A DNA stretch of 23,569 nucleotides from positions 1 to 23,569 of IMG/VR virus record IMGVR_UViG_3300025437_000063, one strand, 5' to 3'. The translations under genes and the position numbers were made by a program. Under the pieces are notes generated by a model. It did no database searches, was not told the DNA's origin, and saw only the letters and a program-made list of their open reading frames with translations. Below are positions 18,760 through 23,569 of this stretch, piece by piece (position 1 is the stretch's first letter; every line of letters begins with the position of its first letter). This DNA comes from a virus.

Positions 18760-19023
18760 ATGCCTATATACCCAGATGATCCGTTTTTTGGTGGAATTGC
18801 TCCCAAGCAACTTCGCCGCGGAAATTTAACACAGGTTCAAGATTATGTGCCAGCCTTGGCTGAACTTGTATATTCAACAAATACCAATCAATTATATATA
18901 GGTGATGGAACCACAGTAGGTGGACATTTAATAAGTGGTGGCGGTGGCAATGGAGGCAATCTTGATTTTGGCACCATAACACAACCAGCAGGTTTTACTT
19001 TGGATTTAGGTAGTATATTATGA
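18760..19023 (+). CDS. Small tropism-determinant-N-like protein (87 aa)
   Basis: Residues 18-58 (RRGNLTQVQDYVPALAELVY, then QLYIGDGTTVGGHLISGGG) match the pattern of the N-terminal domain of phage tropism determinants (RRGT...P..GElvYdt.t..LYiGDGtT.GG). That domain normally anchors a receptor-binding protein to the virion. Here almost nothing follows it except a glycine loop and the ending NLDFGTITQPAGFTLDLGSI. The C-terminal motif LDFGxIxQPAGxxLDLG recurs in the next ORF. It may be a fibre-base subunit or a leftover N-terminal module from fibre shuffling. The ribosome binding site GGGAGGA is strong, and the stop overlaps the next start (ATGA). Confidence 0.6.
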   Translation: MPIYPDDPFFGGIAPKQLRRGNLTQVQDYVPALAELVYSTNTNQLYIGDGTTVGGHLISGGGGNGGNLDFGTITQPAGFTLDLGSIL

Positions 19024-19244: not shown

Positions 19245-22200
19245 ATGGCATTAGAATTTAGACGCGGATCAGACGCAGATAGAGCAACAATTACACCACT
19301 AAGTGGTGAACCTATTTGGACCACCGACACACACGTTCTCTACGTAGGTGATGGGGTTACCCAAGGTGGTATACAGGTCGCAGGTGGCGGTGGTGGTGGA
19401 TACATCAATACATCTACATTATACAGTGGTGAAGCAACTGCATTTTTAAATGATCAAGGACATTTCCAAGCCACACAATTATTGGCCAGCGAAGGCACTG
19501 GTGCTACCAATGGTTTTAGTTTCTATCAAGATGGCAGTGAAGATACTGGTATGTTTTCAGCCGGTGATGGAAATCTAAGTTTATACAGCAATTCTCAACA
19601 GGTTGTGAATTTGAATACCACACGTTTCCAATTTTTGAAAACTGTAGATTTCAACAACAATCAAGTCAACAATGTCAATCAAATCCAATTCAATGATGAA
19701 ACTGTTCAAACCACTGCTTATACTGGTTCATCAAATCCTTTTAATCAAAGTTTAAACACCACAGACAGTCCTACATTTGCTGGTGTTGTTGTCGGAGAAG
19801 GATTCCCAGGTAGTGGTGGTGGATTAAGTTTCAATGAATCAGGCACCGACACAGGAATCTACAGTGGTGAAGATGGACAATTGGATATCTATGCCAATGA
19901 TACCAATATTCTTCAAATAGATGAAAGTGGTTTAGAAGTTAAAAAATCAGATGGCTATATAAAATTCAATGATGGTAGTTATATCACCGATGGTGGTTGG
20001 ACTGCGGCATCTAGTAGTGCAGTTTATATGGAAGATTCTGCAAGTCAACAGGCTGTGGTGGTAACTCCCAGTAATGTAGAATTTTATGCTGGATCTTATA
20101 GTTGGAGTATGAACAATCAGGGAGCATTGACATTTCCAGACAGCACAGTTCAAACCACTGCTTATACTGGTCCAGTAAATCTATTTAATCAAAGTTTAAA
20201 CACCACAGACAGTCCTATATTTGTTAATATAACTGCTAAAAACAGTATATCTGCAGAAAGTGATTATCTACCTTATAATAATTGGATATATTACAGTGAT
20301 TTTGAAACATTCACTGATGGTAATTTTGTTGATCTAAGTGGTAATTTCCAACACGCAGAAATACAAGGTGGTGGCGAAGAATCACAAACCACAGAACAAT
20401 ATAAATTTGGATCATACAGTTTAAAATCAGGCACGCCGGGACAAAGTATAGAAGTTTATACCAATAGTGGTAGTATTCCAGGAAATCTGGATAATCCATT
20501 TCAAGCATTTACAATTGATCTTTGGATATATCCTAATAGTGATGATCCTCATTGGAATACCAATGATCAAAATATTATCAGTTTAGGTTCTACTAATTCT
20601 GGAGAAAATGGAACTGGTCAATTTGGTATGAGTTATCAAAATGGAAATTGGGTATTGGCCTATACCGGAGCAGGTGGTACTACATTTGATACATTTGCTT
20701 CTACATCTATAACTATAAATCAATGGAATCACATTGGTTATGTGTCTAAACCAAACAATTTATCAGTTACTTTCTTAACCAATGGCGTAGAAGAAACTCC
20801 TGGTTTGAATAGTTCAATTCCAATATTTGGTTCAAATGGTCGATTCAGTATTGGTAACAACAATCCTACTCACAAGACTTTTGTAGGTTATATTGATTCA
20901 TTGCGTATAAAAAATAATTCATTTCATTATACTAATTCAGGAAGTTATTCTATTCCCAGTGATGGTGCAACAATTATATTAAAAGATGGAACTTCTATAA
21001 CCGGAGCCAGTCAATTGGTTGGTCCAACAGGTCCTGAAGGTTCAACTGGTCCAACAGGTCCTGGAGGTTCAACTGGTCCAACCGGAGCCATAGGACCCAC
21101 TGGTCCAGCAGGTGGCGTAAATCCAGTAACTTATTTTACTGTGACCAATGCGTTGACCATCAATGAAATGATGTTGAATTCTACCAGCACAGGTATTTTA
21201 AATGTTAACTATGAATATACAGTTAGTTCTTATCCCAGTAGTTGGACATTCTTTACAGATTTTGAAACAAATCCAATCACTGATCTAACAGGTGTTAACA
21301 GTGGAAATTGGACTAATCAGGCCAGTACCACACAGGTTAAATTTGGAACTTACAGTTATTATAGTCCAAATAACAATAATACAGGATTCCTAGCCGGCAG
21401 TGGATTAGGTTCTGTGGGCACTGTAGGGGATTACACAGTTGATATGTGGATTTGGATTGACAGTGGTAACACAAATAACAATGATCAAAATCTTATTAAT
21501 TTAAATCACTTTGGTGAAGGTCCCAACAATGGAGCTTTAGGTATCACAGGTAATAGTGGAAGTAAAACATTAGCTTATTGGAATTCACACCCTGATTCTG
21601 CCAGTAATGGAAATATAACTATTCCACAAGATCAATGGGTACACGTTGCCTTTATGAGACAAAGTGGCAATTATTATCATGCTGTTAATGGATCTGTTGA
21701 ATCTTTGACTTATAGCAATGGTGATCTTGATTTTATAGATCATTTTGAATTAGTCAGCAACAGAGATCGAGATTCATTTATAGGTTATGTTGATAATTTC
21801 AAACTTGCCAATGCCGCAATATTCTCTACCAGTGGATTCTCAGTACCAGTGGCCAATGATTATATTCCACAGACCGTACTTGATGTAGTTCCTGGAGGTA
21901 TTAACATTGACAGTGCTACCGCCAATAATGTAAAAATTAATAATACATTGGTATTCCCTGATAATTCTACACAAACTACAGCCTGGACGAACAGTTATAC
22001 TCCACAATCTATTGGAAATAATAATTTATATGTAAGTGTAGCACCTGATGGTAGTTTACAGGTTCCACTTGTTAATGTTCACCATTATAATATTGATGCC
22101 TATCAAAACAATTATAGTCTTAATCAAAATGATACATTAGCATTTAGTAATTTCAGTGGACACATCATAATCAATGATTGGTACGATGGATTTATGTATG

Positions 22201-22403
22201 ATTTTCTAGTAGGTAGTGGCAATGTTTGGTTAAGTGGATCAACTAATCCCAATTGGACACCAGCTACCACTAGTCCTGGTACTAGTGTAACTGTTACCGA
22301 TTATATAAGTATGGTCTATGATGGTGGTTATACATTTACCAATCTTGCTTCAAATAATAGAACTTTTTGTATATTTGCAGTAAGAACTAGACAAGGAGCC
22401 TAA
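19245..22403 (+). CDS. Large tail fibre: tropism-determinant-N-like, repeat, LamG-like, collagen-like, LamG-like
   Basis: This 1052-aa protein is a probable main receptor-binding fibre. Domains in order are as follows. Residues 1-50 form a virion-anchor domain (FRRGSDADRATITPLSGEPI, then LYVGDGVTQGG). About 85-320 hold paired fibre repeats (SEDTGMFSAGDGNLSLYSN / GTDTGIYSGEDGQLDIYAN, and two QTTAYTG...FNQSLNTTDSP units). About 345-578 form a LamG/concanavalin-like domain (YYSDFET, FTIDLWIYP, WNHIGYVS, FVGYIDSLRI). About 592-624 form a collagen-like Gly-x-y segment rich in GPTGP. About 664-875 form a second LamG-like domain (FFTDFET, TVDMWIWID, WVHVAFMR, FIGYVDNFKL). A third QTTAW motif comes near 908, then a beta-rich C-terminal domain. 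LamG domains usually bind sugars; the collagen-like rod would separate two binding heads in a trimer. The ribosome binding site is AAAAGGA. Confidence 0.8.
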   Translation: MALEFRRGSDADRATITPLSGEPIWTTDTHVLYVGDGVTQGGIQVAGGGGGGYINTSTLYSGEATAFLNDQGHFQATQLLASEGTGATNGFSFYQDGSEDTGMFSAGDGNLSLYSNSQQVVNLNTTRFQFLKTVDFNNNQVNNVNQIQFNDETVQTTAYTGSSNPFNQSLNTTDSPTFAGVVVGEGFPGSGGGLSFNESGTDTGIYSGEDGQLDIYANDTNILQIDESGLEVKKSDGYIKFNDGSYITDGGWTAASSSAVYMEDSASQQAVVVTPSNVEFYAGSYSWSMNNQGALTFPDSTVQTTAYTGPVNLFNQSLNTTDSPIFVNITAKNSISAESDYLPYNNWIYYSDFETFTDGNFVDLSGNFQHAEIQGGGEESQTTEQYKFGSYSLKSGTPGQSIEVYTNSGSIPGNLDNPFQAFTIDLWIYPNSDDPHWNTNDQNIISLGSTNSGENGTGQFGMSYQNGNWVLAYTGAGGTTFDTFASTSITINQWNHIGYVSKPNNLSVTFLTNGVEETPGLNSSIPIFGSNGRFSIGNNNPTHKTFVGYIDSLRIKNNSFHYTNSGSYSIPSDGATIILKDGTSITGASQLVGPTGPEGSTGPTGPGGSTGPTGAIGPTGPAGGVNPVTYFTVTNALTINEMMLNSTSTGILNVNYEYTVSSYPSSWTFFTDFETNPITDLTGVNSGNWTNQASTTQVKFGTYSYYSPNNNNTGFLAGSGLGSVGTVGDYTVDMWIWIDSGNTNNNDQNLINLNHFGEGPNNGALGITGNSGSKTLAYWNSHPDSASNGNITIPQDQWVHVAFMRQSGNYYHAVNGSVESLTYSNGDLDFIDHFELVSNRDRDSFIGYVDNFKLANAAIFSTSGFSVPVANDYIPQTVLDVVPGGINIDSATANNVKINNTLVFPDNSTQTTAWTNSYTPQSIGNNNLYVSVAPDGSLQVPLVNVHHYNIDAYQNNYSLNQNDTLAFSNFSGHIIINDWYDGFMYDFLVGSGNVWLSGSTNPNWTPATTSPGTSVTVTDYISMVYDGGYTFTNLASNNRTFCIFAVRTRQGA
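19701..19779 (+). repeat. QTTAYTG/NQSLNTTDSP fibre repeat, copy 1
   Basis: GTTCAAACCACTGCTTATAC and the following segment to about 19779 recur 444 bp (148 codons) downstream with few changes. Confidence 0.8.
20145..20223 (+). repeat. QTTAYTG/NQSLNTTDSP fibre repeat, copy 2
   Basis: This is the second copy of the unit at 19701-19779, in the same reading frame. It encodes VQTTAYTGPVNLFNQSLNTT. Together with the related motif at the end of the 826-aa fibre, it offers homology for fibre recombination. Confidence 0.8.
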
Positions 22404-22607: not shown

Positions 22608-22919
22608 ATGGACAAAAATAAATTCAACGCCTTAGTGGATCAATATTTGACTCCACAACTAAAATCACACCTGCTAAAACCTTTTTTGGTAAGAGCCCGA
22701 GCAGGTCGTGTTCCACGAAGAAAAATCAGTGAGGAAAATACAAGACTGGCCATTCGACCTATCTGTGAAAAATGTCCAGACTGCGATCTTATGGTTGAAA
22801 ATCGTGTTCAGGAATTTTGGTTAGAACGAATTGGTCGACCCAGTCAGCGTTGGGTTAAAAAATGTAGTGGATGTGGTCAAAAAACAACCTTAAATTGCCC
22901 CTATAAAAAGTCAAAATAA
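22608..22919 (+). CDS. Small zinc-ribbon-like protein (103 aa)
   Basis: The N-terminal half is basic and helical (LDKNKF-like start, then LLKPFLVRARAGRVPRRK at residues 22-39). The C-terminal half has C53-x2-C56-x2-C59 and C86-x2-C89 with C97 (CEKCPDC...CSGCG...C), a likely zinc-ribbon or zinc-knuckle with two CxxC knuckles. The WLERIGRPSQRWVKK linker between them is basic, which suggests nucleic-acid binding. I recognise no named family. Its ATG lacks an accessible ribosome binding site and sits against a strong hairpin (22579-22606), so translation is probably controlled or leaderless. A candidate structured RNA lies directly downstream; an RNA-binding partner role is only a guess. Confidence 0.6.
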   Translation: MDKNKFNALVDQYLTPQLKSHLLKPFLVRARAGRVPRRKISEENTRLAIRPICEKCPDCDLMVENRVQEFWLERIGRPSQRWVKKCSGCGQKTTLNCPYKKSK

Positions 22920-22925
22920 TAAATA
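22918..22925 (+). promoter_or_regulatory. T4-late-like promoter (7/8 match) before the structured RNA
   Basis: AATAAATA matches TATAAATA at 7 of 8 bases, the best in the window. Using the T4 spacing (-13 to -6), the transcript would start at G22931, which is exactly the first paired base of the first stem of the RNA candidate. Confidence 0.5.
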
Positions 22926-22930
22926 TACTT

Positions 22931-23204
22931 GTAGGACGGATTAGTTGTCATATGCAAGATCTCCTTAATCCTTAAATAAACCTTCCATTCGTCCTACATT
23001 TGTGTGCAGAATTATTCTGCACACCCTTTAATTATTAGTGTTATACGGAAGGCAAGACTGTATAACTAACAAAAACTAATCATTAAAGTTAATTAATTTT
23101 CAAAAGTTTGGAGTGCAATGCTCCGCTCTAAGGCCCCTTTATTGGGGCTTTCGGGTGAATAAATGGTCATCTTGCCTATACCACGTATTCACAACTTTTG
23201 AAAG
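22931..23204 (+). ncRNA. Candidate structured RNA (noncoding RNA or cis-regulatory leader)
   Basis: There is no plausible ORF in this 291-bp gap, but perfect stems are dense. P1: GTAGGACGGA (22931-22940) with TTCGTCCTAC (22988-22997), one GU. P2: GTGTGCAGAA (23002-23011) with TTCTGCACAC (23015-23024), 3-nt loop. P3: GTTATAC (23040-23046) with GTATAAC (23060-23066). P4, closing a four-way junction: TTTCAAAAGTT (23098-23108) with AACTTTTGAAA (23193-23203). Inside P4 are hairpins 23110-23124 (GGAG/CTCC), 23130-23151 (AAGGCCCC/GGGGCTTT, one GU) and 23155-23161 with 23186-23192 (GTGAATA/TATTCAC). The P3 loop (AGGCAAGA, 23050-23057) and the last hairpin's loop (TCTTGCCT, 23170-23177) are complementary over 8 bp, a possible kissing interaction. 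I recognise no known RNA family (not tRNA, tmRNA, RNase P, or an obvious group I intron). The 3' stem overlaps GAAAG upstream of the next start codon, so cis-regulation is an alternative. Confidence 0.6.
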
Positions 23205-23210
23205 ATTTGA

Positions 23211-23569
23211 ATGACATATCAACCTAATTTTACGGATCCACGAGTAATATCTAGAATCAAACAAGCCATTGGCTTTGCTTGTGGAGTAATGAGTGAAACT
23301 AAACCCCATGAGTGGTCTACTAGATACATAGACAAATACTTTGGTTCACAAAGAAATGATCTATCTAAGTATTTGAGAAAAACCTTGTTGATTTGCACAG
23401 ATCATTATGTGAGATTTAATATTCCAGGTGAACGAGGAATATGTAAGAAATATATACTGAATAAAGAGGGTGTGAGATTCCTCAATGAGGCATTGAAAAA
23501 TAACAATATACAATTATACCCTATTGTAGTGGAAGTCGCAAAACAAGACCATACGCTTGAACTTGATAA
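23211..23569 (+). CDS. Unrecognised protein, partial (runs off the right edge)
   Basis: The frame starts MTYQPNFTDPRVISRIKQAI at the ATG seven bases after the last stem of the RNA candidate and stays open to the window end (119 complete codons). It has HEWSTRYIDKYFGSQRNDLS and YLRKTLLICTDHYVRFNIPG, then GICKKYILNKEGVRFLNEAL. Several helices with basic faces and a beta hairpin give the look of a DNA-binding (winged-helix-like) replication or regulatory protein. That is an impression and no family is identified. There is no clear Shine-Dalgarno sequence; only GAAAG inside the RNA stem (23200-23204) is available. The sequence resembles a coding gene in composition and codon use, so I am confident it is real. 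Confidence 0.65.
   Translation, partial: MTYQPNFTDPRVISRIKQAIGFACGVMSETKPHEWSTRYIDKYFGSQRNDLSKYLRKTLLICTDHYVRFNIPGERGICKKYILNKEGVRFLNEALKNNNIQLYPIVVEVAKQDHTLELD

Follow-up and report, generated by a model that had tools for sequence, protein, structure and literature searches.

A candidate family of late phage RNAs with a 5'-terminal stem enclosing an anti-Shine-Dalgarno-like loop

A gap between two genes at the end of the structural module of a virus genome, unusually rich in stems, raises the question of whether it encodes an RNA and, if so, of what kind. The DNA is an IMG/VR virus record of 23,569 bases, the whole of which constitutes the window analyzed here, and its genes include terminase, portal, scaffold, capsid and tail genes. 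Based on its predicted fold, its promoter element and a comparison with related phages, we propose that it very probably belongs to a conserved RNA family uncatalogued in Rfam, and tentatively that members of this family act on translation initiation.

Fold and promoter element of the gap

The minimum free energy of 22931-23204 is -86 kcal/mol as against -52.0 +- 4.2 for shuffles (z -8.1; 0 of 200 shuffles as good), and the plus strand of the entire gap (22920-23210) also has a z of -8.1. The seven stems recognized by a sequence-only reading are present in the predicted fold, and their density is, as that reading held, unlikely to be a product of chance. The minus strand of the gap also folds well (z -6.2), since any set of stems folds on both strands; we assign the RNA to the plus strand based on the promoter element and the terminator U-tracts of relatives. 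The main features are as follows.

22608-22919, plus strand: gene for a small zinc-ribbon protein of 103 aa, directly upstream of the RNA
22920-22925, plus strand: TAAATA, a promoter element of the T4 late type immediately following the stop codon of the zinc-ribbon gene; predicted +1 at 22931
22930-22941/22987-22998, plus strand: P1, a 12-bp stem enclosing the anti-SD-like loop, its 5' strand beginning one base before the predicted +1
22959-22968, plus strand: AUCUCCUUAA, an anti-Shine-Dalgarno (anti-SD)-like motif predicted to be mostly unpaired (0.83-0.92)
23002-23011/23015-23024, plus strand: P2, a perfect 10-bp hairpin in the predicted fold, missing in the relatives L070 and L092
23026-23088, plus strand: P3, a long interrupted stem (23026-23032/23082-23088 and two inner helices) with apical GCAAGACU
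23098-23203, plus strand: four-way junction in which P4 (23098-23108/23193-23203) encloses three hairpins
23110-23124, plus strand: P5, hairpin GGAGU-GCAAU-GCUCC with the GCAAY pentaloop signature, from the fold and a motif count
23131-23150, plus strand: P6, hairpin AGGCCCC/GGGGCUU, terminator-like and without a U-tract
23155-23192, plus strand: P7, the last junction hairpin, with loop UCUUGCCU, whose complementarity to the P3 loop is confined to the window
23211-23567, plus strand: gene P, cut by the window end, with the fold of an exonuclease-less mini family-A DNA polymerase

Searches of the window and ten relatives against 4227 families of Rfam 15, phi29 packaging RNA included, gave no match at gathering scores and only chance-level matches in the region (E 7.5-9.7), in agreement with the earlier statement that the structure fits no known family. 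The gap holds no tRNA and no ORF of at least 60 aa. A decayed gene was rejected as an explanation because the gap is devoid of ORFs and its stems are maintained by compensatory change.

In T4-type late promoters a TATAAATA-like element precedes the start by about 10 bases. The TAAATA of the window lies about 5 nt before the predicted +1, so that the predicted start falls, to within a base, at the beginning of the first stem, as had been noted from the single sequence; together with the fold, this makes a structured RNA, probably late, the appropriate reading. The late promoters of cyanophages are of the form NATAAATA (PMC2984593). In the DNA of the phages compared here TAAATA is nine times denser in intergenic than in genic sequence, and the main coding strand carries 97 of the 107 intergenic copies; at the loci it often overlaps the upstream gene's stop codon or lies directly next to it. 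Furthermore, in almost every RNA the 5' strand of P1 starts no more than one or two bases from the predicted +1. The median 5'-terminal stem score is 22.5 for the 19 RNAs of the family versus 11.0 for 185 other TAAATA sites in the same phages (p 1e-11), and scores of at least 20 are reached by 13/19 RNAs versus 3/185 control sites. This positioning of P1 at +1 relative to controls is the evidence, whereas the score of 126/126 for P1 pairs is not, as those pairs were selected because they pair.

Relatives and their shared layout

The gene at 23211 (gene P) served as bait for relatives, yielding three loci at first and then more by alignment, and a pattern search for the two GC-rich hairpins led to L092. 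The family now stands at 19 loci from little-known, mostly uncultured phages, 17 of them collected via a neighbouring gene or DNA pattern and two (L022 and L048) via the hairpin signature alone. One gene P relative is a genome contig from a MAG labelled Legionella; isolate phages contained no gene P relative and no DNA match of note. The 19 members are 88 to 280 nt long and all fold better than shuffles (z -2.1 to -7.6). They share a layout of TAAATA, about 5 nt, P1 at +1, a U(C)UCCUUUAA loop, often a GCAAY hairpin, and usually an intrinsic terminator and a second promoter, and in many relatives the RNA lies in the gap that precedes gene P or in another close by. We regard a new ncRNA family as well supported; to our knowledge few conserved structured ncRNAs have been described from phages using T4-late-type promoters. 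The family also offers explicit testable parts, namely the start site, the P1 loop, the GCAAY hairpin and a candidate protein partner.

The GCAAY hairpin, in which a GCAAU or GCAAC pentaloop is closed by U-G, C-G or A-U and which is either separate or the terminator hairpin itself, occurs in 11/17 RNAs as against 0.1 on average in shuffles. This signature has already yielded further members: L022 and L048 both have TAAATA, P1 at +1 (strands GTAGTGAGAC/GTCTCACTAC and GCAGGGC/GCCCTGC, respectively) and a terminator, and L022 additionally carries the UUCCUUUAA loop, while other matches of the scan that lay within genes or lacked the layout were left uncounted. A second motif, GCAAGGCU, is identical in the second long stem of L070, L092, L016 and L036, with the window having GCAAGACU in its place. 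Two sequence-conserved loop motifs amid otherwise variable stems would suit an RNA scaffold or ribonucleoprotein part, for instance in packaging or virion assembly in the manner of the phi29 packaging RNA, in which these motifs are protein sites and the anti-SD-like loop is incidental. The late-type promoter and a location where the structural module ends, close to the terminase in L005, are consistent with such a role, but no unpaired sequence is as widespread as the anti-SD-like motif, the length varies from 88 to 280 nt, and Rfam gave no match even with the phi29 family included. We therefore consider a scaffold quite unlikely, and found no evidence for the packaging or counter-defence roles that the sequence-only reading had suggested. 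The likeness to the phi29 RNA, a phage-encoded structured RNA of similar length, does not extend to layout or genome position.

An unbiased scan with the pattern TAAATA-N4-TGTAG...CTCCTTAA recovered the L017 locus a second time (as L094), along with matches mostly due to chance and a possible small relative in L099. This candidate (L099 4710-4948), on a phage fragment that is different in other respects, is a short TAAATA-started hairpin RNA that carries CUCCUUAAUC and a terminator; it is flanked on one side by a lipoprotein-like gene and on the other by a further TAAATA promoter, and is possibly a distant or convergent member. In a distant gene P relative (L034 6440-6578) a leader stem of about 20 bp or more surrounds a GAGU-GCAAU-GCUC hairpin without TAAATA.

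Junction subtype, termination and neighbouring genes

The four-way junction previously read at 23098-23203 is closed in the predicted fold and defines, along with the lack of a terminator U-tract, a subtype made up of the window, L070 and L092. As MAFFT misaligns P1 in the three-way alignment, the helices were compared by hand. Six of 11 P4 pairs differ on both sides between the window and L070 and all remain paired, so that the proposed comparison with related phages does reveal compensatory changes. The sequence of P1 differs among the three and pairs in each; hairpins GGAGUGCAAUGCUCC and AGGCCCC/GGGGCUU are unchanged across them; in L092, P4 contains a bulge and P3 a single mismatch. The contact proposed between the P3 and P7 loops fared differently: AGGCAAGA (23050-23057) and TCTTGCCT (23170-23177) are complementary and situated in loops, but the complementarity is absent from L070 and L092, whose P7 loop GTGATGT complements a linker ACATCAC instead. 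Given also that about 0.9 complementary 8-nt pairs are expected by chance at this size and composition, a tertiary contact is unsupported, though the window alone may have one, and was rejected as a conserved feature since the closest relatives lack it.

An intrinsic terminator ends the RNA in 16/19 members, the exceptions being the window, L070 and L092, and both promoter and terminator are present by sequence in 16/19. P6 appears to be the counterpart of the terminator hairpin of other members minus its U-tract; RNAs of the window's subtype thus probably continue into the next gene or get trimmed. A second late-type promoter often precedes the next gene, and in most relatives the terminator and this promoter separate the RNA from it. 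L092 retains the RNA together with an upstream gene of the same kind, its downstream gene is different and unrelated, and its 26-kb record, which may be incomplete, has no gene P. The terminators in 16/19 members and the changed downstream gene of L092 suggest that the RNA is mainly free-standing, and the earlier suggestion that it is the leader of the gene at 23211 is not supported as a general role. A cis-acting 5' leader nonetheless has some points in its favour. In this reading the RNA would be the untranslated leader of whichever gene follows (gene P in the window), and P4, whose end lies 7 nt upstream of the start codon, would mask the initiation region until opened; the window and L070 lack a terminator, P4 ends a few nt before the ATG, and related phages have apparent true cis leaders in which UCCU pairs to the leader's own SD (L010 before gene P, L018, L022, L029). 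Against this stand the terminator and separate promoter of most relatives and the situation in L092, and we judge such a leader unlikely. The same terminators might instead mean that the hairpins merely end the tail-module transcript and stabilize 3' ends, with the promoter-to-P1 part a by-product. Such a transcription-boundary element would not explain the dedicated promoter element with P1 at +1, the conserved loop motifs or the terminator-less subtype, and appears very unlikely to us.

Gene P itself, roughly 365 aa in L004 (6001-7101), lacks a convincing Pfam or PHROGs family. Its model is a polymerase palm (pLDDT 86.5), which among solved structures matches T7 DNA polymerase best (Z 12.7 over 216 residues, rmsd 3.5); virophage replication proteins (viral models) also rank high. 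A family-A polymerase fold adjoining the RNA in most loci brings to mind a primer or replication-control RNA comparable to ColE1 RNA II; this adjacency is, however, biased because loci were collected through gene P, the L048 RNA is 2.2 kb from gene P, and the L092 record is without it, making this role highly improbable. Gene P is a neighbour of the RNA and not an obligatory partner. About 30 nt of gene P (ATACAATTATACCCTATTGTA..., window 23497-23528) recur near the end of or just after gene P in relatives (L005 5499-5530; L003 1067-1099 and 1148-1180).

On the upstream side, 10 of the first 17 RNAs are directly preceded by a gene for a small protein containing one CxxC motif or two, and the GCAAY hairpin is found in 9/10 RNAs with this zinc-ribbon gene versus 2/7 others (Fisher p 0.03). 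The gene gave no match as a search query, and its model, which resembles RPB9/TFIIS-type zinc ribbons only at E > 0.1 and has a pLDDT of 69, is too weak for a claim on its fold. Elsewhere in the window, genes at 18760-19023 and 19245-22403 contain the Mtd N-terminal domain (PF18454), the latter adding laminin-G and collagen-like parts; they possibly code for receptor-binding tail fibre proteins.

The P1 loop and a proposed role in translation initiation

The pyrimidine-rich U(C)UCCUUUAA inside P1 of the family RNAs is complementary to the ribosome-binding-site sequences found most often in these phages (UUAAGGA, AAAGGA, AAGGAGA), whose commonest 6-mers before start codons include AAGGAA, AAAGGA, TAAGGA, AGGAGA, AAGGAG and TTAAGG. 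Complements of such 6-mers occur inside P1 in 13/17 RNAs as against 4.8 +- 1.8 in shuffles (maximum 11 in 2000), although these statistics are partly post hoc, as the motif was first noticed in some loci later counted, having been recorded after the first relatives and before most loci were fetched. These complements are about seven times denser inside P1 than in the rest of the RNA (35 vs 5 per kb) and mostly unpaired there, as in the anti-SD sRNA class. The motif is altered or missing in L016, L019, L021, L033 and L048, and a resemblance to an anti-SD holds for any UCCU-rich loop. From one sequence the earlier reading could not have brought out this shared loop, the GCAAY hairpin or the upstream zinc-ribbon gene.

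Predicted RNA duplexes are on average stronger at ribosome-binding sites than with intragenic sequence in 15/16 phages, which follows from the motif and is no proof of function. Duplex prediction found no recurrent single mRNA target across the phages, and a single specific target was rejected since the best duplexes vary by phage. The top-ranked site falls among the next four genes in 6/15 phages versus an estimated expectation of roughly 4, and no pattern emerges from the 11 nt matched in the second gene downstream in L070 or the 9 nt matched in the next gene in L031.

The combination of a late-type promoter, a protected 5' end, an exposed anti-SD-like loop and a terminator suggests a trans-acting regulator of translation initiation. 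We posit that an RNA polymerase with phage late specificity would start at the first base of P1 or about one base from it, that the 5' end locked in this stem should be shielded from decay, and that P1 would expose the U(C)UCCUUUAA loop for pairing with ribosome-binding sites on phage or host mRNAs, thereby blocking or retuning translation initiation late in infection. Probable recognition sites for a protein would be the GCAAY hairpin and the GCAAGGCU motif, with the zinc-ribbon protein encoded just upstream, a putative RNA-binding protein, as the best candidate partner. On the strength of the layout and loop complementarity we offer as a tentative reading, held at somewhat less than even confidence, a late, mostly free-standing regulatory RNA whose P1 loop occludes ribosome-binding sites in trans; the same degree of confidence applies to the anti-SD mechanism as such. 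That the zinc-ribbon protein and the GCAAY-hairpin RNA form a dedicated late ribonucleoprotein, acting as a global translation switch that occludes a class of ribosome-binding sites, strikes us as rather improbable, and we know of no phage with such a switch. If the anti-SD reading is true, these phages would own a general RNA tool for retuning late-infection translation.

Among the systems compared from the literature the closest functional analogue would be the alpha-r14 or 'cuckoo' sRNAs, to which we claim no homology. They too are variable-stem hairpins presenting a conserved unpaired anti-SD motif, and one of them, NfeR1, silences its target mRNAs through pairing where translation is initiated (PMC10746234). 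The alphaproteobacterial RNAs are stress-induced and have CCUCCUCCC in three hairpins, whereas the phage RNA has U(C)UCCUUUAA in one 5'-terminal hairpin, a late-type promoter and a GCAAY hairpin; as CCUCCUCCC is absent from the window RNA, which has a single anti-SD-like loop, we do not place it in that class. The c4 RNA of phages P1 and P7 similarly has loop sequences complementary to the region around a ribosome-binding site, but controls one antirepressor mRNA in temperate phages, while the present RNA has no apparent single target, and again no homology is claimed (PMC12197685). CfrI of cyanophage S-PM2 is an RNA of about 225 nt in a phage with NATAAATA late promoters; it runs antisense to psbA and to a homing endonuclease gene, unlike the present RNA, which is intergenic and sense (PMC2984593). 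Finally, in other TAAATA-type transcripts of the related phages a UCCU-containing leader sequence can pair with the transcript's own SD, apparently as cis-acting SD-sequestering leaders, at about 4740-4866 in L010, 6165-6330 in L018, 6190-6320 in L022 and 6110-6280 in L029.
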